Notes under the pieces: generated by a model
Seen by the model: only the letters and a program-made list of their open reading frames with translations
Databases searched by the model: none
Told to the model about the DNA's origin: nothing
Translations under genes and position numbers: made by a program
Shown: one piece after another, positions 45,006 through 64,000 of the stretch
Layout: every line of letters starts with the position of its first letter
Numbering within the stretch: the stretch's first letter is position 1
Assembly: GCF_028693135.1 (NCBI RefSeq)
Contig: NZ_JAQUVZ010000006.1
Coordinates: 1 to 64,000, forward strand
DNA from: Methanosarcina sp.
Lineage (GTDB): Archaea > Halobacteriota > Methanosarcinia > Methanosarcinales > Methanosarcinaceae
DNA: 64,000 nucleotides
Reading direction: 5' to 3'

Positions 45006-46070
45006 TCATTTTTCCTGCGGAACATCGGAGTGTGCCAGCGCAAAGATTCCATATTCTGTTTTCAGAACCGGGATTTCACTTCCTGCTTCTGCACTAAAGG
45101 ACATTGGCTTTTTTATTGCAACAGTTTCATAGGTCTCAGGGTCAAGCACCAGAATTGCATTTTCTTCGATTGAAACCAGAACTGTAAAAACTGCATCCCC
45201 AAGATTTGCAATTTTTTCTGCGCCTTTGAGGTCTTCAGGAGTTGAAATAAACCTGGAGCCGTCTTCAAGGCTTATTCCGTTGACCTTCTTGCCTGAGCTT
45301 CTTATCTGGATAATCCTTCCCCTGAACCTTATCACGTCCCCTGGCCTGAACTCCGGAAGGCGCATGGCAAAAGTAATCCTGTAGAGGTTTTTCCCGTCTT
45401 TCATCCCAACAAGGGTAGGAGACTCGGAAAAACTGCCTCCGAGTTCGTTAATGATCAGCCGGCAGACCTGCCTGCTGGCGTTCATGGAACCCATGTAGAG
45501 GTCAATTCCCTCCTTCAGTTCAAGGGCTTCGCTTATAAAGGCAAGGCGGTCGCCTTTCTTTCTCATGCTTTCCATGGAGTCCCTGGCAATGGCAGAGCAG
45601 CGCCTCCTTTCCTCTTCAGTAGGGAACCTGCCTGCAGCCCTTATCTGGATGATTGCTTCAAAGTATCCTCCGGATTCACGGCTACACATATCGCAGGCTG
45701 TCCGCTGAACCCTTACTTCTGTCTCAGCTTCGGCATGGACTGACTCTTCTTTTACGATTGCATCTATTTCGGCTCTCACCTTGTATATATAAGGCGTCAT
45801 TTCTTTTGGTTCCATACAGAGTTCCACATCGCTGGCTTCATCGTGGATAAAAAGGGCATTTTCTACGGCTTTCAGCACCACTTCTTCGACATTGCCGATA
45901 TTTTCCCAGCGGCTCCTGTGGAAATACGCTCCGCAGCTGGAACAGATCCTTATGTGGAGTACAAGAGGCAGCTCAATTGGTTTGAAGGTTTCAAAGAAAC
46001 AGTCCCTGCAAACGGAATCAAAAAGTTTATCGCATTCTTTGCCGCATTTCGGGCATGTGATGGAATTCAT
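45006..46070 (-). CDS. NMD3-like ribosome-associated zinc protein
   Basis: 354 residues. The N-terminal zinc-binding part (CPKCGKECDKLFDSVCRDCFFETFKPIELPLVLHIRICSSCGAYF) and another Cys cluster (CDMCSRESGGYFEAIIQIRA) match the archaeal relatives of NMD3, the eukaryotic 60S export adaptor. In archaea a large-subunit maturation role is inferred. It is followed at 22 bases by the ATP-grasp gene, so the two probably form one unit. Confidence 0.9.
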   Translation of the reverse strand: MNSITCPKCGKECDKLFDSVCRDCFFETFKPIELPLVLHIRICSSCGAYFHRSRWENIGNVEEVVLKAVENALFIHDEASDVELCMEPKEMTPYIYKVRAEIDAIVKEESVHAEAETEVRVQRTACDMCSRESGGYFEAIIQIRAAGRFPTEEERRRCSAIARDSMESMRKKGDRLAFISEALELKEGIDLYMGSMNASRQVCRLIINELGGSFSESPTLVGMKDGKNLYRITFAMRLPEFRPGDVIRFRGRIIQIRSSGKKVNGISLEDGSRFISTPEDLKGAEKIANLGDAVFTVLVSIEENAILVLDPETYETVAIKKPMSFSAEAGSEIPVLKTEYGIFALAHSDVPQEK

Positions 46071-46875: not shown

Positions 46876-46905
46876 ATCTGTAAGGTTTTCAATTTACATT
46901 TGGAC

Positions 46906-48315
46906 TTATTGTTTTGGGGGCCAGTTCTTCTCGATCCAGCCAGGTATACGGCCTGAGTCCATTGGACCAACCTTTACATTTGCACCTAGTGTATCTTCGA
47001 GGTCACCCTGCAGACGGGCTGATAGACCTGGAATGATAAGGGTGTTGTGGTTTGTGTCGGTCTTTAGATCGAAACCAGCCTTGTCGAAGGCGTCCTTTAC
47101 CTTTGCGGAAGTCAGCTGACCACCGGCAACTGCAGCTTCCACACCAATACCATCGGTGTCAACTGCAAGCAGCCAGCATACGATGCCATTTGCTGAGATA
47201 TCGCTTTCTACCGTGTAGTAGGTAAGGGCGAAGTTGGTGGTGAAGAATACCGGAGAGTCTTTGTCCGGGGCTCCAACCTTATACATCCCTCCGTCCACGG
47301 AGACAGGAGTCCTTGGGTCGGTGTAGATTGTTTCAGCCAGGTGCATTTCAGGCAGTGCTGCATATGGCTCCAGGCTGTGGAGTATCATAATGTCGCCGTA
47401 CCTGATTGTGAAGACTGAAGCAATAACGGTTTCCCAGTAGGATGCGCTGACAGGGTCTGCAATTCCTGCCATCCAGGCTGTGAGCGGGAGAGCCATGATC
47501 GGGTATGCGATCTCGGTGTCTCCCATAATGCCTGCTCTCCTGATTTTCAGGAAGTTTGTGAAGGAATCCTTCAGGCCTTTGCCGCTTGGGTAGGTCCCCG
47601 GGTCGAGCACAATGTCCTTAATTCCTGACTCTGCAAAGGTCTTTGCAAGGGTCTTAAGGGCATCGAGGTCATTGAAGGCTGAAACTACAACAGGCACCTT
47701 GTATTCAAGGGCGAGTTCTCCTACTTCTTTCCAGTTGTCCTTGTTTGCAGCGTAGAGCAGTGGGTTTTTATCCTTTGCAACCTCAAGTCCTGCCTTCAGG
47801 ACAGCGGGATTGAAGGAACAGAAGATCATAGGCAGGCCTATTTCCGCTACCTTCTTGACGGCTGCTGCGAACTTTGCAGGGTCGTTGGAAGTGGCTTTTA
47901 TTGCCACACCGTCGAGAAGCAGGTTTCGTCCTACATAGAACTTCTTGAAGTCAGCGATTTTGTTTACTCTCTCAATAAGGGCAGCTTCTTCGAGGTTGTC
48001 TGAAACATCGAAGAACAGCTTTGTCTTATTGAAGAAGGTAAGTTTGTGGCGGTACAAGACATCGTCTCCACCGATGTTTGCTGCCTTTTCGCCTACTCCT
48101 ATGGTAACCTGGCGGATCTCCGGGGCAAGGATAATATCGAGTTCTTTAAGCTTCTTTGCGTACTTCTTTTCCTTGACCAGGGGTGGGCATTCTGATGTCT
48201 TGCCGGACCTGTCAATCAGTTTGGAGGCAAAGGCCATACATGTAGGTTCACCACATTCTCCACAGTTTGTCTGGGGCAGGTACTTGTAGGCTTCTAATGG
48301 GCTGTTTATTTTCAT
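46906..48315 (-). CDS. cdhE: CODH/ACS gamma subunit CdhE, copy 1
   Basis: Large corrinoid iron-sulfur subunit of the acetyl-CoA decarbonylase/synthase complex; it moves the methyl group between tetrahydrosarcinapterin and the acetyl-CoA synthase site. 469 residues. The N-terminal 4Fe-4S motif NCGECGEPTCMAFASKL, the TIM-barrel methyltransferase-like body and a C-terminal corrinoid-binding region (NTLIIPGLSARLQGDLEDTLG) are present. It starts 4 bases after cdhD behind GGAGGTG. Identical base for base to copy 2 at 58954-60363. Confidence 0.97.
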   Translation of the reverse strand: MKINSPLEAYKYLPQTNCGECGEPTCMAFASKLIDRSGKTSECPPLVKEKKYAKKLKELDIILAPEIRQVTIGVGEKAANIGGDDVLYRHKLTFFNKTKLFFDVSDNLEEAALIERVNKIADFKKFYVGRNLLLDGVAIKATSNDPAKFAAAVKKVAEIGLPMIFCSFNPAVLKAGLEVAKDKNPLLYAANKDNWKEVGELALEYKVPVVVSAFNDLDALKTLAKTFAESGIKDIVLDPGTYPSGKGLKDSFTNFLKIRRAGIMGDTEIAYPIMALPLTAWMAGIADPVSASYWETVIASVFTIRYGDIMILHSLEPYAALPEMHLAETIYTDPRTPVSVDGGMYKVGAPDKDSPVFFTTNFALTYYTVESDISANGIVCWLLAVDTDGIGVEAAVAGGQLTSAKVKDAFDKAGFDLKTDTNHNTLIIPGLSARLQGDLEDTLGANVKVGPMDSGRIPGWIEKNWPPKQ

Positions 48316-48318
48316 GTT

Positions 48319-49632
48319 TTACACCTCCGTTCCGATCCAGTTGCTGATGTCAACAGGCTCTGCCTCAATTGAGCCAAAGAGGGTCTGTGTGATCTGCTTC
48401 AGGACTGCCACCGATGTTGGGTGCATCATCATGAATAGATCGTTTCCTGCAAGGGCAAGGGAGAGACCTGTTACGATTTCCCAGATAGGTCCTCTGTACT
48501 CTCTTGGGCCCCAGTCAGTGTCCTGACCCAATGGAGATCCAACCATCCATGATTCACGGGCACCCCATGCATTGGTGGTCCCTGAAGACATCGGGAAGGT
48601 CAGTTCGTCATCACCCATAAGGGCTGCAAGTCTGATGCGCTCCATGTTGGTGTAAGCGTAGTCGAGACCATACCCGAGGGCGGCAGTTGTTGGGTCCATG
48701 ATGATTCTGTCTCTGGGCACTTTGCACTGCTTCATTAGTTTCCTGTTAAGTTCCTTCTGGGCGTTCATGTCCAGCTGGGTCCAGGAAAGCACGTCGTGGT
48801 CATACTTTAATGCAGCTTCTGCGATTGCTGCATAGTCCAGGTTCAGGCTGGCAGATGCAAGGAGGCAGCGTTCGCCTTCCGCAACTTCTGCGGCTTTTGC
48901 CAGGACTTCGGGATCCTTCTGTGGGTTCCCTGATCCACCAATGGCTATTGGCACATCAACGGCCTGCAGGACTTCCTCAACGGTCTTGGCTGCGTCCTTG
49001 GGGGATGTGTCCTTAATGAGTGGGTCGGTTGAAATCAGGTGGATGGTGATCATGTCGGCGTTGAACTTGTCAACGTTCTTCTTTGCCCATTCTCCAGGGC
49101 TGTCCATGACCTCGTCGTAGTTCTCCTTGACAGCTTTTGCAAGCCCTATTCTCATGTCGAACACGTCTATTGTGACCTGGTTCCTGTTCGGCATTGGAGC
49201 ATCAAAGTAGAATGGAAGGGCTTTTTCGCCACCTACCATTACCCTCTTTCCACGGCTTCCGCCGTCTGCAGAGGTGTTTCCGATTGGAACTTCCTGAATC
49301 TGGGTTGCCCATTCTGCTATGTTTGCAACATCGAACTTTGCAGGAATGAGATCCTTAAGTTTCGGGGCTGCCAGAGCAGGAGCAATTGCGGGAGCAGCTG
49401 CTGAAGCTCCAAAGCCTACGGGGTACCCAAACATGCCTGCAAGTCTTGCAAAGTGCTGTGCAAGTACCGCACTTTCCTGCCCGAGGGCTGCGGCAAGCAT
49501 TGGGTCAAATCCCCCTCCGAGTCCACCGAGGTCAAGCTCAATGTCCCCTTCTATAGTCACACCTTCGAGGGATTCTACATCCATTCCCGCGAACATGTTT
49601 GTTATATCTGATAACTTCATTTTCTTTGCCAT
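48319..49632 (-). CDS. cdhD: CODH/ACS delta subunit CdhD, copy 1
   Basis: Small corrinoid-protein subunit that pairs with CdhE. 437 residues. It begins [37 protein letters not shown] and continues with a TIM barrel ([30 protein letters not shown]). A low-complexity Ala/Pro linker ([19 protein letters not shown]) lies near residue 85. The start has GTGAGG ahead. The reading frame and nucleotide sequence match the second copy (60367-61680) exactly. Confidence 0.97.
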
Positions 49633-49879
49633 GTAAACCTCACCGTTTCCGTAATTTTTCCATTTTTGTGAGTGACTGTATAATAAGGAATATAATACAG
49701 AACGTGTTTCCAGATCTTTTACCCTGATATAAGAACAGGGACCGGGGCAGGAACGAATCCTGCTCCGTTATTCTGTTTATTTTAAATGCCGTTTCAAGCT
49801 CTCAAACCGGATCTGGGTTCCTGTTCTCTTTTTCCGGTCGGTTTTCTGCATAATCCACAGGTTCAAAAGAAAGCTGGGG
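49633..49879 (-). other. 247-bp spacer between cooC and cdhD
   Basis: A rather long gap for an operon, also found unchanged in the second copy (61681-61927). It contains the cdhD ribosome site and AT-rich sequence that could carry an internal promoter or a processing site. No gene. Confidence 0.5.
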
Positions 49880-50641
49880 TCAGAGCCCCAGTTTTTGTAC
49901 TATTTTTTCGATTTCTACTGCAGCAACCGAATCATCCGGGATTTCAAAGAGAGGTATACCTTTTATGTCCATTTCCTCGATTTTCGGATCGAGAGGGATC
50001 ACACCTATCAGGTTCAGTTTCAGGTCCCCGGCCAGTTTGACAATCTCTTGACGGTTTGCATCTGTAACTTTGTTTGCAATAACGTGAATTCTGCCAACAT
50101 TTGAATCCAGTTCACTCACAAGTTCACGAATCCTTTCGGCAGTCTGGAACCCCCTTCTTGAGGCGTCAGTTACAACAATAAGATCATCAATATCCCGGAG
50201 AATCTTTCTACTGAAATGCTCAAGCCCGGCTTCCGCATCAATGACAACTATCTCATAATTCACGATCAGTTTGTCCATGATGCCGCGTAGGAGGTTGTTT
50301 ACGTAACAGTAACAACCTGTACCTTCGGGCCTGCCCATTACCAGCAGGTCATATCCCGGCATTTCTTCAATGATCTCATAGACTTTACTTTTAAGAATGG
50401 ATTCCTTGTTCATATCGGGGTTGTCAGGCCTTGGTTTTTTGATTTCAGTCTGCAAGGATTCCTTTGCATCCCCTACGGTTTTTACGTTCTCACAGCCAAG
50501 GGTTTCTGGCAGGTTAGTATCTGCGTCTGCATCAACTGCCAGTAAAAATTTCCCTTTTTTGGAAAGGTAGCGGATCATAAGAGCCGCTACCGCTGTTTTG
50601 CCAGTCCCACCTTTTCCCGTTATTGCAATTACTTTTGTCAC
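49880..50641 (-). CDS. cooC: CooC/AcsF-type nickel-insertion ATPase, copy 1
   Basis: P-loop ATPase of the MinD family that helps load nickel into CODH or ACS. About 253 residues. Walker A variant ITGKGGTGKTAVAALMIRYL, the DADADTNLPETLG region, and GTGCYCYVN with the CxC pair typical of CooC/AcsF. The open frame extends to a GTG at 50692, but GTG 50641, directly before TKVIAITGKGGTGKT, has AAAGGGG well placed, so it is used. It differs from copy 2 only in its N-terminal half. Confidence 0.92.
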   Translation of the reverse strand: MTKVIAITGKGGTGKTAVAALMIRYLSKKGKFLLAVDADADTNLPETLGCENVKTVGDAKESLQTEIKKPRPDNPDMNKESILKSKVYEIIEEMPGYDLLVMGRPEGTGCYCYVNNLLRGIMDKLIVNYEIVVIDAEAGLEHFSRKILRDIDDLIVVTDASRRGFQTAERIRELVSELDSNVGRIHVIANKVTDANRQEIVKLAGDLKLNLIGVIPLDPKIEEMDIKGIPLFEIPDDSVAAVEIEKIVQKLGL

Positions 50642-50696
50642 AGAATACCCCTTTGGATTGTTTTTCGGTTTTAGGCTATTGCCTTTCGTCACTCAG

Positions 50697-52106
50697 TTAT
50701 TTCTTTTCTTTCTTCTGGCTGATGACCATTTTGTCAATGGTGATCTTTGCGTTCTTGAAGGTCAGCTTTATTCCGCCGCCTGAACCGCCGGACATCATTG
50801 GCATTGCAGGCATCTGGAATCCGGATGCAGGCATCATCATTGGGGATGCTGCAACAGCTACTTCCTCTTCTTCTTCCTCTTCTTCTTCCTCTTCTTCCGC
50901 AGCTACCCAGGTGGCAACTATGGGGTGTTTCTTTTCCTCGAGGAAGGCTTTCAGAGATGCGATATCAGTTGCATCGTTCTCTGTTGCGATCTTGTCCTTC
51001 AGATCTGCAGGGATGGTTTCATCGATCTTCTCTTTGAGTATGGAGGGGAGCCAGACTACTCTGTTCCAGCCACCGTCAGCCTGGATGAACTTCGGGGAGT
51101 AGAAGTAGTTGACCCCAATTCCAAGGAAACCTACGATCTGCTTTCCGCCACCGGTCTGACCGGCCATTGTCGAGAAACCAATACCGTTAGGGGACATTCC
51201 CTGGTATTCTCTGTTAACCCAGCCAATACCGTCGACTTCAGGGATATAGAACCCGACTACTTCGAAGCAACCGCAGGATGTGTGCGGGGAGTCAAAGAAG
51301 GAGTGGAGTTTGATCTTGTCGAATTCACCGGCGGAGAGTTTCTTGGCAATATCGTTGACACCGGTGTATTCACCTGTAACAGCATCGAGAAGTTCACCTT
51401 TGGCAATTTCAAACTGTGGGCCTTCAGGGTCGACTTTTGCTGCTGCACGGCCGTCGAACCAGTTGATTGCACCACAAAGGGAAACTCTGTCAGGGGAAAC
51501 TACACAGACATTGGTCGGAGCAAAGGACTGGCAGAGAGTGCATCCGTAGAAGACATCAACATCTTCATCGTGCAGGTCCTTTGTCCTGGCGTCTCTTGCT
51601 TTGAAAATCTCCTTTGCTTCTGTCATCTGCTTTTCAACTTCAGCCTGTTCGGTGTAGAAGGTGACCTGCATCTTCTCGATAAAGGGCAGTTCTGTCTTGA
51701 AGAGCATCATGACAGCTCTTCCGAAGGGCTCGAAGGAGTCCATCTTCCCAGCTGTGTCCTTGGAAACTCTCATCCAGACATCGTACCTCTGGTTCAGGTG
51801 CATAATGCCCTGGCAGTAGTTGATGAAGTCGTGGACACGCCTTTCGACCACAGATTCAAGGTCAGCCTCGACAAGTTCTCCACCGATGTTGAAGATCATT
51901 GCCCAGGGGTAGGTCTTGCCCTCTTCCATGTCCTTGAGATCTGGACCGACAATTGTGACCTGGTCGTCTACAATTGCATCCATATCTGCTGCTCTGACGA
52001 GTTCGAGACCAAGGGATTTTGGGCCACCAAGTTCAACGAACATTCCTTCCTTTCTTACTCTTTCTCCTTCAAACATCGGGGAAATCTCGAATGGGTAATC
52101 TGCCAT
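50697..52106 (-). CDS. cdhC: Acetyl-CoA synthase beta subunit CdhC, copy 1
   Basis: Holds the Ni-Fe-S A-cluster where methyl, CO and CoA combine. 469 residues. A-cluster cysteine segments DVFYGCTLCQSFAPTNVC and SLCGAINW, and PHTSCGCFEVVGFYIPE. Near residue 395 a run of 13 glutamates (with one alanine-containing lead AAEEEE) and an Ala/Met/Pro-rich linker connect to a small basic tail (GGIKLTFKNAKITIDKMVISQKKEKK). Archaeal CdhC lacks the N-terminal CODH-binding domain of bacterial AcsB. It is followed by cooC; its C-terminal third differs slightly from copy 2. Confidence 0.96.
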   Translation of the reverse strand: MADYPFEISPMFEGERVRKEGMFVELGGPKSLGLELVRAADMDAIVDDQVTIVGPDLKDMEEGKTYPWAMIFNIGGELVEADLESVVERRVHDFINYCQGIMHLNQRYDVWMRVSKDTAGKMDSFEPFGRAVMMLFKTELPFIEKMQVTFYTEQAEVEKQMTEAKEIFKARDARTKDLHDEDVDVFYGCTLCQSFAPTNVCVVSPDRVSLCGAINWFDGRAAAKVDPEGPQFEIAKGELLDAVTGEYTGVNDIAKKLSAGEFDKIKLHSFFDSPHTSCGCFEVVGFYIPEVDGIGWVNREYQGMSPNGIGFSTMAGQTGGGKQIVGFLGIGVNYFYSPKFIQADGGWNRVVWLPSILKEKIDETIPADLKDKIATENDATDIASLKAFLEEKKHPIVATWVAAEEEEEEEEEEEEVAVAASPMMMPASGFQMPAMPMMSGGSGGGIKLTFKNAKITIDKMVISQKKEKK

Positions 52107-52130
52107 TGTGTTTTCGCCTCCTAAATCAAA

Positions 52131-52643
52131 TTATAGTAAGTCAATCAATTCATCCAGGGCAACAAAGTGTTCTTCCCTGCTTATGGTCCCGAAGGACATT
52201 GTTGCGTTCTGGACGTAGTCTTTACCAATTGAAATTGATTTTACTTTGGAAAAGTTCCTGGTTCCGGACAGTACCTGGTTAATATAGTACTTCTTGAATT
52301 CCAGGACTATTATGGTGTCGTAGTTACCTTTTCCGTCAAGTCCGGGCCATGCGGGGTCGGTTAAGTAGAATCCGAGCTGGTGCACATTGATGTACTTGGC
52401 ATCTACGTCCTTGTCTAAGAATCCATTGAGGGAGCTTCCGGTAGCTGCAATTGGAATGTTTGCCTTTTTGGCAATCTTAACTGCACGGTCCAGAATTTCT
52501 GGTCTAAGAACTCCGGTTCCGACCACAAGAAGTGGTCTCTTTGCCTTGGAGATCATCTTGGCTGCCATGTCAGGGTTGATTGCCTTTGAGGTGGTTACCC
52601 CGTAGCTGGTAAAGAGCTTTGTGTTCTTTGTAGTGTCAACCAT
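52131..52643 (-). CDS. cdhB: CODH epsilon subunit CdhB
   Basis: Non-catalytic partner of CdhA in the alpha2-epsilon2 CODH. 170 residues. The Rossmann-like fold of the ADP-ribose/FAD type is seen in [39 protein letters not shown], followed by the tail [34 protein letters not shown] ribosome site within the cdhA end (GGAGG) and a two-base gap to cdhA indicate coupling. The equivalent gene of the second operon lies beyond the window. Confidence 0.95.
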
Positions 52644-52645
52644 TT

Positions 52646-55066
52646 TCAGGCCTCCTTGCAGAGTCTCTTGAGGTTGGTGGGCTGTGCCGAGACGTCGAAC
52701 TTAATCTTCGGACCGGAGATGATCTTTTTCCTCTTCCAATCGATTTCCCAGCCTTTCTCTTCTTCGAGTTTCTTCATGAGGTCCGCACGCTTGGCGAGTG
52801 GCAGGTCGGCTTCGGTCCTGATGAACTTCCACCAGTCATCGGGCATTCCGCCGATATACTTTGCGTGGAGTTCCATCCAGTGGGTCAGCTTAATAGACCT
52901 ACCCATACTGTTGTCGGATGGGCGGATGCAGGCTTTTGCCATCATTGGGATTGCTTCCTGCCAGGTCTCTGCGGTGATCAGGAGGAATTCCGGTGCTGGA
53001 GGGATTGCCATCTCTTCGCCGTTTCTGGCGTCGTAGACCTTCCACTTCTCATCATCATAGTTCTTTGCGATCAGGGCTCTCCTGTACTTAGAACTGTGGG
53101 GACCAAGCACTGCCGGGATACCATAGATGTTACATCCGGTTCCTATTGAAGCTGCTTTCTGAGAGAACGCACCCCATGCAAGACCACAGGCACCAACACG
53201 GTTCAGGACATAGTCTGCGATTTCCGCGAGGTTGCCTCCCATGGTTCTGCCACCAAAGATAGCGGCGACTTTCTGGGCGGCTCCGGTAATGTGAGCATTC
53301 GAGACGCAGGACCCAATGTTAACCAGTCCACCAGACTGGAATCCACCGGGGAACCTCTCATAGAGAGTCTGGCCGTTCTCGTCCTTGTACATACCCATGT
53401 CCATGGACCCACATCCGGTACCGACAACGATATAGTTCCTCTTAAGGAATTCTTCTGCGATGTAGTACACGGATTTGGCTCCATCACCGTAGTTAGGACA
53501 TCCGATGATTGCGATGATACCGGGGGTGGTACCCATGACCAGGTTCAGACCTTCTGAACGGATTTCCGCATCAGATACCTGACCTCTGCCGGCTCTCATC
53601 CAGCCTTTCTCTTCTGCGATAACCTTCTGAGAGGCTTTTTCGATGACGCTAAGGATTGGGATTTCCTTCTTACAGACCTGTTCACAGCGGCGGCATCCGA
53701 TACACTGGTCGTGGAGATCTACAAGGTAGCTGTAGTCGCCTTCCTTGGCATGCTTCATAGCTTCCGGAATCTCCAGTTCTTCAGGGCAGACCAGGTAGCA
53801 GGAGCCACAGTCAGCACACTTGTCGACCCATTCCTTCATCTGCTCATCAGATGCGATTGTCCTGAATCCTGCTGCTTGGCGAATCGGGTGCATTACCTGG
53901 GTGAGCCTTACGGCGATTTCTCCAAGCTTATCGTAGTCAAGGATCACAGCACCCGGAATCGCTCCGGACTTGAGTTCCTCAATTGTCGCATCGACGTCCT
54001 GATCGTCCCTGCTGGGCAGGCCATACATGATCTTGGCGTTGGACGCAATAACGGGAATCCCAAGCTTCTGGGCTTCGGGTACGATGTCTCCACGGACACA
54101 CTGTTCATCAACAACAATGACGTCAGGCAGTCCTGTACGGATGATCTTGAGTTCCTGGGACATGGAACCGATGACCTTGGTGTAGGGAGCTCTCCTGTCG
54201 GCTTCCTTGTATCTGGTCAGGTCGATTGCGGTACAGCAGAGCCCACCGAGTTCCATCTTGTCGGTCAGGTCGTGCTCTTCCATGTAGTCCATCATGTAGG
54301 TGACACCGCCCACGTTGTGTCCGATAACACAGAGGAACGGTTTTTCCTTGTCAATGGTTCCGACACCCATCTCAATGAGTGGGGCTTCGGGATCGGCTTT
54401 CGGGAAGTCGAGGGCTGCGATCTGGACTATATCGGATATTTCCATTCCAACGTGGTCCAGGCTGCCGCTGAAGAGAGCCTTTGAGTCGTAGTCGATCTCT
54501 GCGGATTCCTGCCCGGCATGGACGGTTGCAAGGAGCTGGGTAAGCTGTTCCTCTGTGAACTCCATTGCAGGTTTGATTTCTCCGAGGGTCATTGGTCTCT
54601 GCCCGGTGGTAATCGTGATGTTAGGGGTCAGGACGTCGGATTGCCCAAGCTTGAGGGGTAAGTCTTCTCCGAAGACCTCAATCAGGTGGTCAAGCAGGTG
54701 GCGGCCATGGGCTGCGTGGCAGGCAGTACCGGTGATCACACGGAGGAAGAATTCCCTGCCGTTGTGGCCTAGCATGTCAATACCACAGGCGCCTCTCTTG
54801 TTGTTGGAGAGGTCACATGGGCCGTATGTGCAGTAGCAGCACTGGTCACACATAGGGGTGATTACAGGCTCATAACGGGCGAGTAATTTCAGGTTCCAGT
54901 CATCCCTGTAGGTTGCAAGACCAGGCCATGTGGATGGGCCCAAGGGGCCGAGATCTTTTGCTTTCTCGTCCGCGGCCTCCTTTGCTGCCCCTACAATATT
55001 ATTTATAGTGATCTGAACGGACTCCAGATCTTCTATAGAAAAACTCCCGGTAGTTAGGTTGCTCAT
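52646..55066 (-). CDS. cdhA: CODH alpha subunit CdhA
   Basis: Catalytic carbon monoxide dehydrogenase subunit with the Ni-Fe-S C-cluster and extra Fe-S clusters. 806 residues. The N-terminal cluster motif [28 protein letters not shown], the ferredoxin insert [20 protein letters not shown]...[12 protein letters not shown] (near residue 415), C-cluster region [10 protein letters not shown] and [15 protein letters not shown], and [24 protein letters not shown] are all intact. It is the first gene of the operon, behind GGAGGTAAAGC and a leader with a duplicated ATGCTTAAAGTCACTTT. The partner chain and C-terminus look complete. Confidence 0.97.
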
Positions 55067-55085
55067 TTTAGCTTTACCTCCTAAA

Positions 55086-55122
55086 TATGCTTAAAGTCAC
55101 TTTATATGCTTAAAGTCACTTT
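55086..55122 (-). repeat. Direct repeat next to the cdhA ribosome site
   Basis: Two adjacent copies of ATGCTTAAAGTCACTTT lie about 20 to 55 bases upstream of the cdhA start, in what should be the mRNA leader. Confidence 0.85.
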
Positions 55123-55194
55123 GCCAGACGATTGTATTTACGATATTTGGCATACCGACAACGATTATGCAATTTATATTGACGTCTGATTAAA

Positions 55195-57045
55195 AGTTCC
55201 ACTATTTAAAGACATTTTTAGTAGATCGTTTTTAACTTTTTATAGGAATTACTCACTTACAATACAAAATCAAGTACAGTAAATTAAACAGTTAAAACTT
55301 TAATTTTAGAGGGTCGGGGGTTTACTGTTCTTGTTTTAGACCTCAAATGTGTAAGTCCTATAAATGTTGCGATCTCAGAATAATAAAAGAGATCTGAGAG
55401 ACTATCCGAAAAGTTCTATGCATGTTGTAAAATTACAATTAGTGTCAAGTATCCGGAATCCGTTCGTTTGTACATGATGCCGATTGTATAAGTTACAGTA
55501 AGTCACAGCACTTTTCGAATAAATCCTTAAATTACACATAAGCGACGTGTTATAAATAACTTTCATTTTTGTTCGGTTTAGATACAAAATAAGAAAAGCT
55601 TGGTATAAATCTTATCTAAACTCTTATGAGTCGTTGACTCATGACGTCCCACTGTTTCAAGACATTTTTAGTAGATAATTTTTGACTTTTTATATAAGTT
55701 ACTCACTTACACTACAAAATCAAGTACAGTAAATTAAGCAGTTAAAACTTTTTTTAGAAGATTGGGGGTCCAATGCTCTTGTTTTATGCCTCAAGTGGGT
55801 AAGTCCTATATCAGTAAATGTTGTGATCTCTGAATACTAAAAGAGATCTAAGAGATTATCCAAAAAGTTCCATGCATGTTGTAAAATTACAATTAGTGTC
55901 CATTATCCGGAATCCGTTCGTTTGTGCATGATGCCGGTAGTAAAAGTTACAGTAGGTCACAGCCCTTTTCGAACACGCTCTTAAATTACTCATAAGCGAC
56001 ATGTTATAAATAATTTTCATTTTTGTTCGGTTTAGATACATAATAAGAAAAGCGTAGTATAAATCCTATCTAAACTCTATGAGTCGTTGACTCACGATGT
56101 TCCAACTGTTTAAATATAGTTTTTACAGGTCGTTTTTAACATTATATAAGAGGTTACACACTTACTATACAAAATTAAGTGCAGTAAATTAAACAGTTAT
56201 AACTTGAATTTGACTTAACTTGAATTTAACTTGTATTTTCGAGAGTTGGACGTTCACTACTTTTTTGTTTAAACTTCAAGTGGGTAAGTCCTGTATCAGT
56301 AAATGTTGTGATCTCAGAATACTAAAAGAGATAAGAGACTATCCGAAAAGTTCCGTGCATGTTGTAAAATTACAATTAGTGTCCATTATCCGGAATCCGT
56401 TCATTTGTGCATGATACCGGTAGTAAAAATACGTAGGTCACAGTACTTTTCGAATATCTCTTTAAATTACACATATGAGATATGTTATAAATACCTTTCT
56501 TTTCGGTTTGGTTTGGATACAAAATAAGAAAAGAGTAGTATAAATCCTATCTAAACTCTATGAGTCGTTGACTCATGATGTTCCAACTGTTTAAATATAG
56601 TTTTCACAGGTCGTTTTTAACTTTATATAGAGGTTACACACTTACTATACAAAATCAAGTACAGTGAATTAAACGGTTCTATCTTGAATTTAACTTGTAT
56701 TTTCGAGAGTTGAACGTTCACTACTTTTGTTTAAACCTCAAGTGGGTAAGTCCTTTACCAGTAAATGTTGTGATCTCAGAATACTAAAAGAGATATAAGA
56801 GACTATTCAAAAAGTTCCGTGCATGTTGTAAAATTACAATTAGTGTCCATTATCCGGAATCCGTTCATTTGTGCATGATACCGGTAGTAAAAATACGTAG
56901 GTCACAGTACTTTTCGAATATCTCTTTAAATTACACATATGAGATATGTTATAAATACCTTTCTTTTCGGTTTGGTTTGGATACAAAATAAGAAAAGAGT
57001 AGTATGAATCCTATCTAAACTCTATGAGTCGTTGACTCATGATGA
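55195..57045 (-). repeat. Four tandem ~465-bp promoter/leader-like units upstream of cdhA
   Basis: Four diverged copies follow each other. Using the anchor ACTATCCGAAAAGTT, they align at 55401, 55855, 56338 and 56802 (spacings 454, 483, 464). On the transcribed strand each unit has, in order, an ATGAGTC-AAC-GACTCAT-type hairpin (55626, 56079, 56560, 57024), TATA-like stretches (GATTTATAC and ATTTATAAC), an inverted-repeat element of about 135 bp ending TATCCGAAAAGT, and CACTTGAGG and TGTACTTGATTTTGTA-type blocks. Together they probably form the regulatory region of cdhA. Small frames inside (55402-55587, 55856-56041) are alike in two copies but broken in the others, so they are not called as genes. 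Confidence 0.85.
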
Positions 57046-57589
57046 AGCATGAAAAACAGCATCTTATACTCAGTTTTTCATAGGAAAAGAACATGAAATT
57101 CTTCGAATAACAGGCACAAAAAAACGAAAGTACCAGTGATTAGCAGAATTTTTATGTTAAATCAGGTTTAAAAGGCAGAAAATGGTCACAGGACTACCTG
57201 ATATATGGTGCAAAATTATGAAGTAAACGTTATAGTTATAATCGTAGTTTATACCATTAGGGGTTTATTGCGATTGGTTTTGTATTTAAAACCTCTATTT
57301 GACAGATCCTGTTAATTAATTCAGTAATTTCTTACACAAAACAAGTTGTTTCGACACATTACATTTTGGTAAAATAAAAAATGTCAAAACTCATAAGCTG
57401 CTAGACAAAACTTTGAATTGCAGATAAATACAGAACCATGAAGCCCATTTAGACATTGTATAATGTATACTTCTGTCAAATTTGGGTAAAATACAGAATC
57501 TAAAAATGGATTCAAAGCTTATTAATTAAATCAATAGTTAAATTGTTTTAGCACTGGTTATTTATACTACCTCTAGTTTGTGTAATTTG
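57046..57589. other. Spacer between the repeat block and the DUF134 gene
   Basis: AT-rich, no gene seen. It separates the upstream regions of cdhA (minus) and the DUF134 gene (plus). Confidence 0.5.
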
Positions 57590-58096
57590 ATGGTCAATAG
57601 AGTTAAACGCAGGGTCTCTTGCTTTCCGAAGGCCACCTATTACAAGCCCAGAGAAATCCCTCTTTGCTGTTTGGAAATTGCCAACCTATCCATAGAAGAG
57701 CTTGAAGCTATTCGTCTTTGCGACCTTCTCCAGATAGAGCAGAACGAAGCTGCTGAAAGAATGGGAATATCCAGGAAAACTTTCTGGAACGACCTCCAAA
57801 AGGCCCGGCAGAAGGTAGCTGATGCTCTTGTAAACGGAAAAGCTATCGAGATCTCTGGAGGAGAATACGTTAATACTGGTGAATGCAAGGTCGATTATCT
57901 CTGCAAAGAATGCGATCATGTGTGGGAACCAAAGTACGACCAGAATCGTCCCACAAGCTGTCCTAATTGTAATTCCAATTTAATTTTCCGACGCGGTGGC
58001 GATGGAAGAGGAAAGAGGTTTATTGATAATGATTATTGTTGCCCTAAAGAAAAGGGAAGCAGCAGGAATACTAGTGAAGGAAGCAAAAAAAAGTGA
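57590..58096 (+). CDS. DUF134/UPF0251 helix-turn-helix and zinc-ribbon protein
   Basis: 168 residues. The N-terminal sigma-70-region-4-like helix-turn-helix of the DUF134 family (YYKPREIPLCCLEIANLSIEELEAIRLCDLLQIEQNEAAERMGISRKTFWNDLQKARQKVADALVNGKAIEI) is followed by a zinc ribbon (CKECDHVWEPKYDQNRPTSCPNCNSNLIFRR) and a Lys/Ser tail. It is predicted to bind DNA. An upstream TTG at 57578 could also start it. It is coupled by overlap (GTGA) to a small NifX-like frame, matching the common genomic pairing of DUF134 with dinitrogenase-cofactor-like proteins. Confidence 0.88.
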   Translation: MVNRVKRRVSCFPKATYYKPREIPLCCLEIANLSIEELEAIRLCDLLQIEQNEAAERMGISRKTFWNDLQKARQKVADALVNGKAIEISGGEYVNTGECKVDYLCKECDHVWEPKYDQNRPTSCPNCNSNLIFRRGGDGRGKRFIDNDYCCPKEKGSSRNTSEGSKKK

Positions 58097-58233
58097 CAAT
58101 AATAGCTATACCATGCGAAGGCATGTTTAGTTCTTATGACACTCAGTGGCAAAAAACTAACACAGGCAAGGATTTTGACATTGTAACATTCGGAACCCTG
58201 TTTGGACCAAATACACACATGATAAAATCATAA
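58093..58233 (+). CDS. Short NifX/NafY-like protein, probably truncated
   Basis: 46 codons beginning at GTG, overlapping the preceding stop by four bases. It reads VTIIAIPCEGMFSSYDTQWQ and ends THMIKS. The start resembles the N-terminus of the dinitrogenase iron-molybdenum-cofactor-binding family (IAIP...S.YD), whose members are about 100-120 residues, so this one is either decayed or a reduced version. Family assignment is tentative and rests largely on the DUF134 neighbour. Confidence 0.5.
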   Translation: MTIIAIPCEGMFSSYDTQWQKTNTGKDFDIVTFGTLFGPNTHMIKS

Positions 58234-58901
58234 ACATAACATGTGATTCGTTGCGCACTATAAATATAAAAAAAGCAGAAGAGTTTAAAACTAAGGTTTA
58301 TAATTTAAAAGCTAGAAGATAACTTTTTTCTATATATTTCCTTCAACTGGAATGAAATGTATACAAAAAGAAGCAATCTTAGAATTAGACGGTGTCTTAA
58401 ATTATTGTGGACTTTTGTGCGAATTAGCTCGGCTAAATAGTGAATTTTTGGTAGTTTCTTTTGAAAAACATACAAAAAGTAAGTCATTCACAATAATTAT
58501 GAGTTTTGGAGAACTGGATCGGATTCGGATAATCGTTCTTTTTTCCAAATCCAAGAATCATTTTTATAGTTCCGTAATAATTTCCATATTCTAAGGGCCT
58601 ATCCGAAAAGTGGTTGCCTGCTGCAACTTTTACAATATGCATATGCAAAACCGGAACGGATGCTCTGGATATCATAGACTTATTTGACTTTTCAACATGC
58701 ACGGAACTTTTCGGATAGGCTCTTAAACGGGATTCTATGGATATCAACCGTTCAGTGAGTTCTTTAATTTGAGATTCAAGACTTACAGTAAGCAGTAACT
58801 TCAGGGTGTGAAGCACACAAAGCAAGAATCTCTTCACGTTTCACAAATTAAAAAAGAAATCATTTTATATCCAATTTTTTTCTCGAAAAAAGGAAAAATG
58901 G
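58234..58901. other. Spacer with relics and an inserted element
   Basis: No clear gene. On the minus strand 58731-58837 encodes MKRFLLCVLHTLKLLLTVSL and continues ESQIKELTERLISIESRL, a coiled-coil start that runs straight into the element at 58592-58725. It resembles the N-terminus of a transposase or other coiled-coil protein interrupted by insertion. A plus frame at 58352-58594 has no recognisable domain. Confidence 0.45.
58592..58725. mobile_element. 134-bp MITE-like element
   Basis: Terminal inverted repeats of 20 bp: TAAGGGCCTATCCGAAAAGT at the left and TAAGAGCCTATCCGAAAAGT as the complement of the right end (one mismatch). No internal gene. The same ends and size occur in each ~465-bp unit upstream of cdhA (for example 55395-55530, with ACTATCCGAAAAGTT and ACTTTTCGAATAAA). 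It is therefore a non-autonomous family whose parent is not in this window. Confidence 0.75.
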
Positions 58902-58922
58902 GGTAGCCTCCATAGGGCTACC
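58902..58922 (-). terminator. Terminator hairpin of the second cdh operon
   Basis: A perfect 7-bp stem GGTAGCC/GGCTACC with 7-base loop, 31 bases past the cdhE stop, followed by T-rich sequence on the minus strand (CATTTTTCCTTTTTT). Unlike the hairpin after copy 1. Confidence 0.75.
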
Positions 58923-58953
58923 TCAATAATTATTATTCAATTTACATTTGGAC

Positions 58954-60363
58954 TTATTGTTTTGGGGGCCAGTTCTTCTCGATCCAGCCAGGTATACGGC
59001 CTGAGTCCATTGGACCAACCTTTACATTTGCACCTAGTGTATCTTCGAGGTCACCCTGCAGACGGGCTGATAGACCTGGAATGATAAGGGTGTTGTGGTT
59101 TGTGTCGGTCTTTAGATCGAAACCAGCCTTGTCGAAGGCGTCCTTTACCTTTGCGGAAGTCAGCTGACCACCGGCAACTGCAGCTTCCACACCAATACCA
59201 TCGGTGTCAACTGCAAGCAGCCAGCATACGATGCCATTTGCTGAGATATCGCTTTCTACCGTGTAGTAGGTAAGGGCGAAGTTGGTGGTGAAGAATACCG
59301 GAGAGTCTTTGTCCGGGGCTCCAACCTTATACATCCCTCCGTCCACGGAGACAGGAGTCCTTGGGTCGGTGTAGATTGTTTCAGCCAGGTGCATTTCAGG
59401 CAGTGCTGCATATGGCTCCAGGCTGTGGAGTATCATAATGTCGCCGTACCTGATTGTGAAGACTGAAGCAATAACGGTTTCCCAGTAGGATGCGCTGACA
59501 GGGTCTGCAATTCCTGCCATCCAGGCTGTGAGCGGGAGAGCCATGATCGGGTATGCGATCTCGGTGTCTCCCATAATGCCTGCTCTCCTGATTTTCAGGA
59601 AGTTTGTGAAGGAATCCTTCAGGCCTTTGCCGCTTGGGTAGGTCCCCGGGTCGAGCACAATGTCCTTAATTCCTGACTCTGCAAAGGTCTTTGCAAGGGT
59701 CTTAAGGGCATCGAGGTCATTGAAGGCTGAAACTACAACAGGCACCTTGTATTCAAGGGCGAGTTCTCCTACTTCTTTCCAGTTGTCCTTGTTTGCAGCG
59801 TAGAGCAGTGGGTTTTTATCCTTTGCAACCTCAAGTCCTGCCTTCAGGACAGCGGGATTGAAGGAACAGAAGATCATAGGCAGGCCTATTTCCGCTACCT
59901 TCTTGACGGCTGCTGCGAACTTTGCAGGGTCGTTGGAAGTGGCTTTTATTGCCACACCGTCGAGAAGCAGGTTTCGTCCTACATAGAACTTCTTGAAGTC
60001 AGCGATTTTGTTTACTCTCTCAATAAGGGCAGCTTCTTCGAGGTTGTCTGAAACATCGAAGAACAGCTTTGTCTTATTGAAGAAGGTAAGTTTGTGGCGG
60101 TACAAGACATCGTCTCCACCGATGTTTGCTGCCTTTTCGCCTACTCCTATGGTAACCTGGCGGATCTCCGGGGCAAGGATAATATCGAGTTCTTTAAGCT
60201 TCTTTGCGTACTTCTTTTCCTTGACCAGGGGTGGGCATTCTGATGTCTTGCCGGACCTGTCAATCAGTTTGGAGGCAAAGGCCATACATGTAGGTTCACC
60301 ACATTCTCCACAGTTTGTCTGGGGCAGGTACTTGTAGGCTTCTAATGGGCTGTTTATTTTCAT
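58954..60363 (-). CDS. cdhE: CODH/ACS gamma subunit CdhE, copy 2
   Basis: Same 469-residue corrinoid Fe-S subunit as at 46906-48315, identical in nucleotide sequence over its whole length. It follows the second cdhD by four bases with the same GGAGGTG ribosome site. Identity begins 18 bases beyond its stop and ends exactly where the terminators differ, so the duplicated block is sharply bounded. Confidence 0.97.
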   Translation of the reverse strand: MKINSPLEAYKYLPQTNCGECGEPTCMAFASKLIDRSGKTSECPPLVKEKKYAKKLKELDIILAPEIRQVTIGVGEKAANIGGDDVLYRHKLTFFNKTKLFFDVSDNLEEAALIERVNKIADFKKFYVGRNLLLDGVAIKATSNDPAKFAAAVKKVAEIGLPMIFCSFNPAVLKAGLEVAKDKNPLLYAANKDNWKEVGELALEYKVPVVVSAFNDLDALKTLAKTFAESGIKDIVLDPGTYPSGKGLKDSFTNFLKIRRAGIMGDTEIAYPIMALPLTAWMAGIADPVSASYWETVIASVFTIRYGDIMILHSLEPYAALPEMHLAETIYTDPRTPVSVDGGMYKVGAPDKDSPVFFTTNFALTYYTVESDISANGIVCWLLAVDTDGIGVEAAVAGGQLTSAKVKDAFDKAGFDLKTDTNHNTLIIPGLSARLQGDLEDTLGANVKVGPMDSGRIPGWIEKNWPPKQ

Positions 60364-60366
60364 GTT

Positions 60367-61680
60367 TTACACCTCCGTTCCGATCCAGTTGCTGATGTCA
60401 ACAGGCTCTGCCTCAATTGAGCCAAAGAGGGTCTGTGTGATCTGCTTCAGGACTGCCACCGATGTTGGGTGCATCATCATGAATAGATCGTTTCCTGCAA
60501 GGGCAAGGGAGAGACCTGTTACGATTTCCCAGATAGGTCCTCTGTACTCTCTTGGGCCCCAGTCAGTGTCCTGACCCAATGGAGATCCAACCATCCATGA
60601 TTCACGGGCACCCCATGCATTGGTGGTCCCTGAAGACATCGGGAAGGTCAGTTCGTCATCACCCATAAGGGCTGCAAGTCTGATGCGCTCCATGTTGGTG
60701 TAAGCGTAGTCGAGACCATACCCGAGGGCGGCAGTTGTTGGGTCCATGATGATTCTGTCTCTGGGCACTTTGCACTGCTTCATTAGTTTCCTGTTAAGTT
60801 CCTTCTGGGCGTTCATGTCCAGCTGGGTCCAGGAAAGCACGTCGTGGTCATACTTTAATGCAGCTTCTGCGATTGCTGCATAGTCCAGGTTCAGGCTGGC
60901 AGATGCAAGGAGGCAGCGTTCGCCTTCCGCAACTTCTGCGGCTTTTGCCAGGACTTCGGGATCCTTCTGTGGGTTCCCTGATCCACCAATGGCTATTGGC
61001 ACATCAACGGCCTGCAGGACTTCCTCAACGGTCTTGGCTGCGTCCTTGGGGGATGTGTCCTTAATGAGTGGGTCGGTTGAAATCAGGTGGATGGTGATCA
61101 TGTCGGCGTTGAACTTGTCAACGTTCTTCTTTGCCCATTCTCCAGGGCTGTCCATGACCTCGTCGTAGTTCTCCTTGACAGCTTTTGCAAGCCCTATTCT
61201 CATGTCGAACACGTCTATTGTGACCTGGTTCCTGTTCGGCATTGGAGCATCAAAGTAGAATGGAAGGGCTTTTTCGCCACCTACCATTACCCTCTTTCCA
61301 CGGCTTCCGCCGTCTGCAGAGGTGTTTCCGATTGGAACTTCCTGAATCTGGGTTGCCCATTCTGCTATGTTTGCAACATCGAACTTTGCAGGAATGAGAT
61401 CCTTAAGTTTCGGGGCTGCCAGAGCAGGAGCAATTGCGGGAGCAGCTGCTGAAGCTCCAAAGCCTACGGGGTACCCAAACATGCCTGCAAGTCTTGCAAA
61501 GTGCTGTGCAAGTACCGCACTTTCCTGCCCGAGGGCTGCGGCAAGCATTGGGTCAAATCCCCCTCCGAGTCCACCGAGGTCAAGCTCAATGTCCCCTTCT
61601 ATAGTCACACCTTCGAGGGATTCTACATCCATTCCCGCGAACATGTTTGTTATATCTGATAACTTCATTTTCTTTGCCAT
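60367..61680 (-). CDS. cdhD: CODH/ACS delta subunit CdhD, copy 2
   Basis: Identical copy of the 437-residue subunit at 48319-49632, including silent sites. Confidence 0.97.
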
Positions 61681-61927
61681 GTAAACCTCACCGTTTCCGT
61701 AATTTTTCCATTTTTGTGAGTGACTGTATAATAAGGAATATAATACAGAACGTGTTTCCAGATCTTTTACCCTGATATAAGAACAGGGACCGGGGCAGGA
61801 ACGAATCCTGCTCCGTTATTCTGTTTATTTTAAATGCCGTTTCAAGCTCTCAAACCGGATCTGGGTTCCTGTTCTCTTTTTCCGGTCGGTTTTCTGCATA
61901 ATCCACAGGTTCAAAAGAAAGCTGGGG
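61681..61927 (-). other. 247-bp spacer between cooC and cdhD, copy 2
   Basis: Identical to 49633-49879. Perfect conservation of non-coding sequence shows that recent sequence exchange, not selection on protein, explains the identity. Confidence 0.5.
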
Positions 61928-62689
61928 TCAGAGCCCCAGTTTTTGTACTATTTTTTCGATTTCTACTGCAGCAACCGAATCATCCGGGATTTCAAAGAGA
62001 GGTATACCTTTTATGTCCATTTCCTCGATTTTCGGATCGAGAGGGATCACACCTATCAGGTTCAGTTTCAGGTCCCCGGCCAGTTTGACAATCTCTTGAC
62101 GGTTTGCATCTGTAACTTTGTTTGCAATAACGTGAATTCTGCCAACATTTGAATCCAGTTCACTCACAAGTTCACGAATCCTTTCGGCAGTCTGGAACCC
62201 CCTTCTTGAGGCGTCAGTTACAACAATAAGATCATCAATATCCCGGAGAATCTTTCTACTGAAATGCTCAAGCCCGGCTTCCGCATCAATGACAACTATA
62301 TCATAATTCACGATCAGTTTGTCCATGATGCCGCGTAGGAGGTTGTTTACGTAACAGTAACAGCCTGTACCTTCGGGCCTGCCCATTACCAGCAGGTCAT
62401 ATCCCGGCATTTCTTCAATGATCTCATATACTTTACTTTTGAGAATGGATTCTTTGTTCATATCGGGGTTGTCAGGCCTTGGTTTTTTGATTTCAACCTG
62501 CAAGGACTCCTTTGCGTCCCCGACTGTTTTTACGTTCTCACAGCCAAGGGTTTCGGGCAGGTTAGTATCTGCATCTGCATCAACTGCCAGTAAAAATTTC
62601 CCTTTTTTGGAAAGGTAGCGGATCATAAGAGCCGCTACCGCTGTTTTACCAGTCCCACCTTTTCCCGTTATTGCAATTACTTTTGTCAC
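61928..62689 (-). CDS. cooC: CooC/AcsF-type nickel-insertion ATPase, copy 2
   Basis: 253-residue counterpart of the protein at 49880-50641, with the same GTG start and ribosome site. The C-terminal half is identical to copy 1 at the DNA level. The N-terminal half carries about a dozen base differences, with the protein changes Val for Thr in KESLQ(V)EIKK and Asp for Glu in NY(D)IVVIDAE. P-loop and CxC motifs are unchanged. Confidence 0.93.
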   Translation of the reverse strand: MTKVIAITGKGGTGKTAVAALMIRYLSKKGKFLLAVDADADTNLPETLGCENVKTVGDAKESLQVEIKKPRPDNPDMNKESILKSKVYEIIEEMPGYDLLVMGRPEGTGCYCYVNNLLRGIMDKLIVNYDIVVIDAEAGLEHFSRKILRDIDDLIVVTDASRRGFQTAERIRELVSELDSNVGRIHVIANKVTDANRQEIVKLAGDLKLNLIGVIPLDPKIEEMDIKGIPLFEIPDDSVAAVEIEKIVQKLGL

Positions 62690-62744
62690 AGAATACCCCT
62701 TTTGATTGTTTTTCGGTTTTAGGCTATTGCCTTTCGTCACTCAA

Positions 62745-64000
62745 TTATTTCTTTTCTTTCTTCTGGCTGATGATCATTTTGTCAATGGTGATCTTTGCGT
62801 TCTTGAAGGTCAGCTTTATTCCGCCGCCAGAACCGCCGGACATCATTGGCATTGCAGGCATCTGGAAACCGGCTGCAGGCATCATCATTGGGGATGCTGC
62901 AACAGCTACTTCCTCTTCTTCTTCCTCTTCTTCTTCCTCTTCTTCTGCAGCTACCCAGGTGGCAACTACGGGGTGGTTCTTTGCCTCGAGGAAGGCTTTC
63001 AGAGATGCGATGTCAGTTGCATCGTTCTCGGTTGCGATCTTGTCCTTAATGTCTGCAGGGATGGTTTCATCGATCTTCTCTTTGAGTATGGAGGGGAGCC
63101 AGACTACTCTGTTCCAGCCACCGTCAGCCTGGATGAACTTCGGGGAGTAGAAGTAGTTGACCCCAATTCCAAGGAAACCTACGATCTGCTTTCCGCCACC
63201 GGTCTGACCGGCCATTGTCGAGAAACCAATACCGTTAGGGGACATTCCCTGGTATTCTCTGTTAACCCAGCCAATACCGTCGACTTCAGGGATATAGAAC
63301 CCGACTACTTCGAAGCAACCGCAGGATGTGTGCGGGGAGTCAAAGAAGGAGTGGAGTTTGATCTTGTCGAATTCACCGGCGGAGAGTTTCTTGGCAATAT
63401 CGTTGACACCGGTGTATTCACCTGTAACAGCATCGAGAAGTTCACCTTTGGCAATTTCAAACTGTGGGCCTTCAGGGTCGACTTTTGCTGCTGCACGGCC
63501 GTCGAACCAGTTGATTGCACCACAAAGGGAAACTCTGTCAGGGGAAACTACACAGACATTGGTCGGAGCAAAGGACTGGCAGAGAGTGCATCCGTAGAAG
63601 ACATCAACATCTTCATCGTGCAGGTCCTTTGTCCTGGCGTCTCTTGCTTTGAAAATCTCCTTTGCTTCTGTCATCTGCTTTTCAACTTCAGCCTGTTCGG
63701 TGTAGAAGGTGACCTGCATCTTCTCGATAAAGGGCAGTTCTGTCTTGAAGAGCATCATGACAGCTCTTCCGAAGGGCTCGAAGGAGTCCATCTTCCCAGC
63801 TGTGTCCTTGGAAACTCTCATCCAGACATCGTACCTCTGGTTCAGGTGCATAATGCCCTGGCAGTAGTTGATGAAGTCGTGGACACGCCTTTCGACCACA
63901 GATTCAAGGTCAGCCTCGACAAGTTCTCCACCGATGTTGAAGATCATTGCCCAGGGGTAGGTCTTGCCCTCTTCCATGTCCTTGAGATCTGGACCGACAA
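62745..64000 (-). CDS. cdhC: Acetyl-CoA synthase beta subunit CdhC, copy 2 (cut by window end)
   Basis: The start lies outside the window; about 418 codons are present. The A-cluster cysteines (DVFYGCTLCQSF, SLCGAINW, TSCGCFEVVGFY) and the glutamate run are intact. Differences from copy 1 lie only in the last ~115 residues: DIKDK for DLKDK, FLEAKNHPV for FLEEKKHPI, AAGFQ for ASGFQ and MIIS for MVIS. Upstream of 63051 it is identical to copy 1 to the window edge. Confidence 0.95.
   Translation of the reverse strand, partial: VGPDLKDMEEGKTYPWAMIFNIGGELVEADLESVVERRVHDFINYCQGIMHLNQRYDVWMRVSKDTAGKMDSFEPFGRAVMMLFKTELPFIEKMQVTFYTEQAEVEKQMTEAKEIFKARDARTKDLHDEDVDVFYGCTLCQSFAPTNVCVVSPDRVSLCGAINWFDGRAAAKVDPEGPQFEIAKGELLDAVTGEYTGVNDIAKKLSAGEFDKIKLHSFFDSPHTSCGCFEVVGFYIPEVDGIGWVNREYQGMSPNGIGFSTMAGQTGGGKQIVGFLGIGVNYFYSPKFIQADGGWNRVVWLPSILKEKIDETIPADIKDKIATENDATDIASLKAFLEAKNHPVVATWVAAEEEEEEEEEEEEVAVAASPMMMPAAGFQMPAMPMMSGGSGGGIKLTFKNAKITIDKMIISQKKEKK

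Follow-up and report, generated by a model that had tools for sequence, protein, structure and literature searches.

Organisation of the two cdh operons

The window is a stretch of 64,000 nucleotides from Methanosarcina sp., corresponding to positions 1-64000 of contig C41 (NZ_JAQUVZ010000006.1; 146,183 bp) in a draft Methanosarcina-type assembly (GCF_028693135.1; 4.22 Mb in 89 contigs; designated G000). It carries two cdh operons arranged head to tail. The order cdhA-B-C-cooC-D-E, with matching protein families, is that of the carbon monoxide dehydrogenase/acetyl-CoA synthase (CODH/ACS) operon of Methanosarcinaceae, also termed the acetyl-CoA decarbonylase/synthase (ACDS) operon. CODH/ACS carries the key step in the conversion of acetate to methane, a major natural source of this gas. 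Pfam assignments were made on the genes of copy 1 (op1, the 46888 side), and the genes of copy 2 (op2, the 58936 side, which runs beyond the window) were assigned by similarity.

All cdh genes lie on the reverse strand. To the left is an NMD3-family gene (45006-46070, reverse strand; PF04981), which adjoins cdhE in nearly all relatives with an intact locus and marks the ancestral cdh site between NMD3 and a rhomboid gene, designated the “N locus”. Operon 1 comprises cdhE (46906-48315; corrinoid Fe-S protein gamma; PF03599 and PF04060), cdhD (48319-49632; delta; PF03599), a cooC-like gene for a nickel-insertion ATPase (49880-50692; PF01656/PF13614 and operon position), cdhC (50697-52106; ACS beta; PF03598 and PF19436), cdhB1 (52131-52643; CODH epsilon; PF02552) and cdhA1 (52646-55066; CODH alpha, isotype A1a; PF03063). 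Upstream of cdhA1 are a leader region of family D (55067-57044, reverse strand) and a DUF134 gene (57590-58096, forward strand; helix-turn-helix and zinc ribbon; PF02001). The latter adjoins cdhA in all loci of the DUF134-side type, designated “D loci”, and serves as the marker of the D-side unit. After a junction (58097-58935), operon 2 continues with cdhE (58954-60363), cdhD (60367-61680), cooC (61928-62740) and cdhC (62745-64000), which is cut by the window end and finishes at contig position 64154. Beyond the window, C41 carries cdhB2 (64179-64691), cdhA2 (64694-67111) and the rhomboid gene (68370).

A preliminary description of this DNA had reported two identical tracts flanking a diverged block, and its coordinates proved right to the base. 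Positions 46888-50251 equal 58936-62299 over 3,364 bases at an offset of 12,048; this tract holds cdhE, cdhD, the 3' part of cooC and 18 bp past the cdhE stop. The island that follows (50252-51003 versus 62300-63051; the 5' half of cooC and the 3' end of cdhC) contains exactly 29 mismatches in 752 bp. Identity then resumes at 51004 and, once the contig was followed past the window end, extended to 51992/64040 (989 bp), after which six differences occur in the first 114 nt of cdhC. An even spread of differences does not fit these data: 29 mismatches placed at random over the 5,105-bp tract would all fall within 752 bp with a probability of ∼1.5e-22, and 0 of 200,000 shuffles reproduced this. 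Nor is the identity due to constraint, because op1 and the sister species G008 are separated by 161 differences in the first identical tract (37 in the island and 118 in the second tract). Each version of the island has 35 mismatches to G008 and the allele pattern is mixed, so a recent import into one copy is not supported.

The tracts and the sharply bounded island thus stood, but they cover no more than a portion of the operons, and within the mosaic the island is a minor part. The larger contrast, between cdhAB and cdhC-E, lay outside the view of the preliminary description, and the main unconverted part is cdhA-cdhB. These two genes are 22% diverged between the copies at the DNA level; the proteins are 78% (CdhA) and 74% (CdhB) identical, compared with 98.5-99% for CdhC and CooC. 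The cooC copies differ in 14 codons (3 nonsynonymous) and the cdhC copies in 18 (7 nonsynonymous); six of these 18 codons lie at the 5' end of cdhC, outside the island. Reading frames are intact in both operon copies. For cdhA/cdhB, dN was 0.145/0.16 and dS 0.91/0.92, values that indicate purifying selection.

The operon mosaic in two-copy genomes

Ten two-copy genomes were compared, namely nine profiled genomes (G000, G001, G003, G004, G005, G007, G009, G030 and G037, the metagenome-assembled genome BM5_bin.6, hereafter BM5) and G036 from the sister genus g5, which is also represented by G038 and G039. Within every one of the ten, pairwise profiles showed cdhC-cooC-cdhD-cdhE to be more alike than cdhAB. 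In eight of the nine genomes measured, the 5' edge of the homogenised tract falls at -109 to +8 nt relative to the cdhC start; the 3' edge, in the nine, is at +1 to +61 nt after the end of cdhE. The exception at the 5' side is G007, with an edge at -987 nt and two cdhA genes that differ by just 5.5%; this longer tract beside a similar cdhAB pair points to divergence itself as the barrier. Identical tracts of at least 2 kb join the copies in G000, G004, G005 and G007, and the whole of cdhC-E is identical in BM5. The pattern of identical runs differs from genome to genome.

Trees were obtained for the separate parts of the operon. For cdhC+D+E, copies pair within 10 of 10 genomes (support 97/98 or better; the BM5 copies are identical), and a grouping of all D copies in one clade was rejected (p 2e-55). 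The 500-bp leaders upstream of cdhA form two families, D and N, split with 100/100 support, and no exchange between these families was seen in the leader tree. Grouping by locus was also rejected for cdhA (p 5e-4), several isotypes of which are distributed across loci and species, and the cdhB tree follows that of cdhA.

We interpret these results as a four-module mosaic in which cdhC-E has been repeatedly homogenised by gene conversion between two old paralogous operons, and assign this reading a probability of roughly 0.88. Each locus keeps its own leader (module 1). The cdhA-cdhB pair, encoding CODH alpha/epsilon, is maintained in distinct isotypes and behaves as a cassette that changes locus and species (module 2). 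The cdhC-cooC-cdhD-cdhE block, encoding acetyl-CoA synthase, the nickel-insertion ATPase and the corrinoid protein, is homogenised between the two loci of each genome (module 3), and the 3' flanks are locus-specific (module 4). Conversion tracts would end where homology ends, at the diverged cdhB/cdhC junction and just past the cdhE stop, and the 752-bp island would be a stretch skipped by the latest conversions. In G000, as in the sister genus, the D-side operon lies within the ancestral NMD3-rhomboid locus, which makes the tandem.

An older duplication followed by gene conversion or recombination had been proposed in the preliminary description, and the wider comparison supports this order of events. 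Both loci keep orthologous flanks and leaders across the genus while the cdhC/D/E copies pair within genomes, so the duplication predates the species. The pattern has the features of concerted evolution: copies within a genome are closer than orthologues, the duplication is older than the species, and homogenisation has happened repeatedly in separate lineages and continues. The mosaic, its edges, its recurrence and the differing trees of its parts are observed; that the underlying molecular event is gene conversion is what we infer from the sequences.

Several observations weigh against this interpretation. Homogenisation is patchy, as separate conversion events would leave it: the cdhE copies of G003 differ by 5-8%, and the cooC-cdhD spacers of G005 are unrelated. 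By sequence, conversion would be indistinguishable from reciprocal crossovers or from an import that brought the cdhC-E of another strain to both loci. In the window's own genome, which is a draft of 89 contigs, the cdhC block at 51004-51992 (identical in both copies) is 8-10% from G008 while cdhD/E are 4.7% from it, and import may therefore have preceded the copying. A separate recent duplication in each species, with cdhC-E alike because it is young and cdhAB diverging fast later, would also make cdhC-E copies pair within genomes, but we regard it as scarcely credible. The flanks and leaders of both loci are orthologous from species to species and between genera, and this leader orthology refutes it; the same two leaders would not be expected from independent duplications, and the cdhAB isotypes are common to several species and are under purifying selection (dS 0.9). 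Within the window's genome, the operons likewise do not have the form of a recent tandem duplication, since cdhAB is 22% diverged and the two leaders are unrelated to each other, both having orthologues in relatives. Tandem layout can also be set aside as the cause of homogenisation. The suggestion that the two go together was not borne out, because homogenisation is equally strong between distant copies (∼0.3-3.5 Mb apart in 7 of the 10 genomes).

Tandem and dispersed states

The tandem is very probably real in G000. The stretch cdhA1-spacer-DUF134-cdhE2 is unique DNA and, however the shared block is resolved, this link is compatible only with a linear tandem or with a 12-kb circle (shared block-cdhA1-DUF134) beside a single chromosomal operon. 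Such a circle, or an assembly artefact, is very unlikely, although the genome is a draft, the identical tracts of 3,364 and 989 bp exceed usual short-read inserts, and several drafts of relatives break exactly at the shared block. The order NMD3-[cdh]-DUF134-[cdh]-rhomboid is also found in G036 on one contig (4.21 Mb), with a spacing of 12,795 bp and copies that are 94.5% alike; because these copies differ by 5.5%, they are not an assembly duplicate. The same tandem order occurs in BM5 (spacing 12,539 bp), and linked contigs imply it in strain KYL-1 (G023). No close copies were found in a plasmid collection. Note that in G021 the NMD3-side operon (L039, contig C5) is followed by a D leader and DUF134 but no second cdhE is reached within 4 kb, and the other cdhE end is on another contig (L064, C4), which reflects either a rearrangement or an assembly choice.

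According to the preliminary description, the two operons lie far apart in well-studied Methanosarcina genomes, and in the two-copy genomes assembled on one or two contigs (G001, G003, G004, G005, G007, G009 and G030) they are indeed roughly 0.3-3.5 Mb apart. The tandem is thus uncommon, as had been supposed, but the sister-genus genome and BM5 show that it is not unique. A proneness to deletion or amplification of the 12-kb unit, also predicted there, is plausible. Single-copy G008 and G010 have the N leader of op2 joined to an A1-type (op1-type) cdhA, the changeover falling between nt +10 and +62 of that gene; deletion is not the sole route to such a hybrid.

Tandem and dispersed forms are related by excision or insertion of the D unit, because the two ends of the junction between DUF134 and cdhE2 (58097-58935) match sequences that flank the dispersed D locus on its two outer sides in relatives. 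The dispersed D loci of G001, G007 and G009 share a neighbourhood that is present without cdh in G036, G000, G008, G010, G029 and G004. Other flanks surround the D loci of G021/G011 and of G003/G004/G005/G030, and a single insertion site for all dispersed D loci was rejected on these differences. The ratio of between-genus to within-genus distance was 0.9-1.25 for DUF134, the D leader and cdhA1a, and 1.35-1.8 for the NMD3-side and rhomboid-side genes and the N leader. Because the former lack genus-level divergence, the D-side unit has probably been exchanged between genera, and a strictly ancestral tandem with vertical inheritance is weakened.

Two histories were weighed against these data. 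If the tandem were ancestral, dispersed D loci would derive from looping-out and reinsertion and single-copy species from deletion. The same tandem order in two genera, the D site of G001/G007/G009 unoccupied in six other genomes, the leader-cdhA joint of G008/G010 and an old local duplication common to most D spacers of both genera all favour this history, to which we give somewhat less than an even chance. The distance ratios do not fit simple vertical descent, dispersed (G038) and single (G039) states occur in genus g5 as well, and a swap of the AB cassette with a later loss could have produced the G008/G010 hybrid. In the other history, for which we consider the odds about even, the 12-kb unit of the D side is passed on horizontally and is taken up into the N locus through homologous recombination across cdhC-E, making the tandem anew. 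This would account for the distance ratios and for the interleaving of tandem, single and dispersed states on the species tree, and a donor fragment (shared block-A1-DUF134-shared block) would be homologous at both ends. The dispersed D locus of G038 (L196/L197) carries a D-side cdhA with 96% protein identity to the window's cdhA2, and this gene looks to have been transferred from Methanosarcina. On the other hand, no intermediate or circular form was seen, and the DUF134 and D-leader trees are poorly resolved, so the donor cannot be named. No integrase, transposase or relaxase was recognised in the 12-kb unit, whose recognised genes are the six cdh genes and DUF134 (small spacer ORFs not scanned), and it does not qualify as an autonomous mobile element such as a transposon or integrative element.

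A tentative, rather doubtful extension is that the D-side unit is a module moving by homologous recombination alone, with the cdhC-cooC-cdhD-cdhE block as its homology arm. If so, a second, differently regulated CODH isotype with its leader could enter, leave or be swapped within and between genera, and conversion would keep the homology arm identical, so that exchange stays possible.

Isotypes, related systems and small elements

It follows from the sequences that the two operons provide a pair of CODH isotypes, each behind its own leader, and a single ACS/corrinoid core common to both. The arrangement may serve regulation, or adaptation to CO or oxygen, through two differently regulated isotypes that share an interchangeable core. 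In Methanosarcina acetivorans, which also has two CODH/ACS operons (Cdh1/Cdh2) with different expression levels (PMC4652020, PMC12918732), function is ascribed to both isoforms (PMC4652020), and on acetate the expression of cdh2 exceeds that of cdh1 (PMC12918732); its operons are far apart, if G001 is that species. The operon proteins match solved structures 3CF4, 31OX and 9C0Q, and the nearest by sequence differs by isotype (3CF4 for CdhA1, 31OX for CdhA2), which allows isotype differences to be mapped. The pattern separates the parts of the complex free to diversify (CODH alpha/epsilon and leaders) from those kept interchangeable (ACS, the corrinoid protein and CooC). Trees or marker assays based on cdhA or cdhC-E in these organisms mix paralogues, conversion and transfer.

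Wang & Chen (2018; PMC6053082) described syntenic old duplicates that are closer within a genome than to orthologues, in key complexes including methanogenesis enzymes; their archaeal table lists mtmB, mtmC, mtbB, mtbC, mtrA, glnB and histone, and no cdh gene. Unlike those cases, only the downstream part of one operon converts here, with edges near-constant from genome to genome, and in the part that is not converted isotype cassettes are switched. Conversion between mtrA-1 and mtrA-2 in methanogens (Wang et al. 2015; PMC4632066) likewise leaves one part homogenised and another distinct in a core methanogenesis complex, but it involves one gene pair in one operon, whereas here a multi-gene block is converted between whole operons, often megabases apart. 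The highly efficient intermolecular gene conversion of Haloferax volcanii (PMC8223754) indicates machinery in Euryarchaeota that could supply the mechanism, although there it equalises chromosome copies in polyploid archaea and not paralogous loci. A literature search, with most subscription papers beyond its reach, found no account of a mosaic or tandem cdh layout. The operons offer a natural, testable archaeal case of homologous recombination maintaining partial identity between operons.

Across isotypes and two genera, the DNA sequence hardly varies over the ribosome-binding site and the initial ∼60 nt of cdhA (55007-55083; C41:67052-67128, L004), and the first 20 codons are unusually conserved synonymously (0.15 versus about 0.4). 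This segment is possibly a regulatory element or a recombination anchor. In the D leader, Tandem Repeats Finder (TRF) detected four imperfect ∼454-bp tandem copies upstream of cdhA1 (55196-57044). Other D loci have fewer leader copies, frequently accompanied by fragments of DUF134 and of the cdhA 5' end. The D-spacer repeats need not be relics of a third operon, as a local duplication of a simple kind, joining DUF134 codon ∼72 to cdhA nt ∼150, accounts for them. A ∼135-bp element with inverted ends, resembling a miniature inverted-repeat transposable element, lies at 58594-58728; some of its 16 genomic matches, which vary in quality, fall inside the leader repeats.

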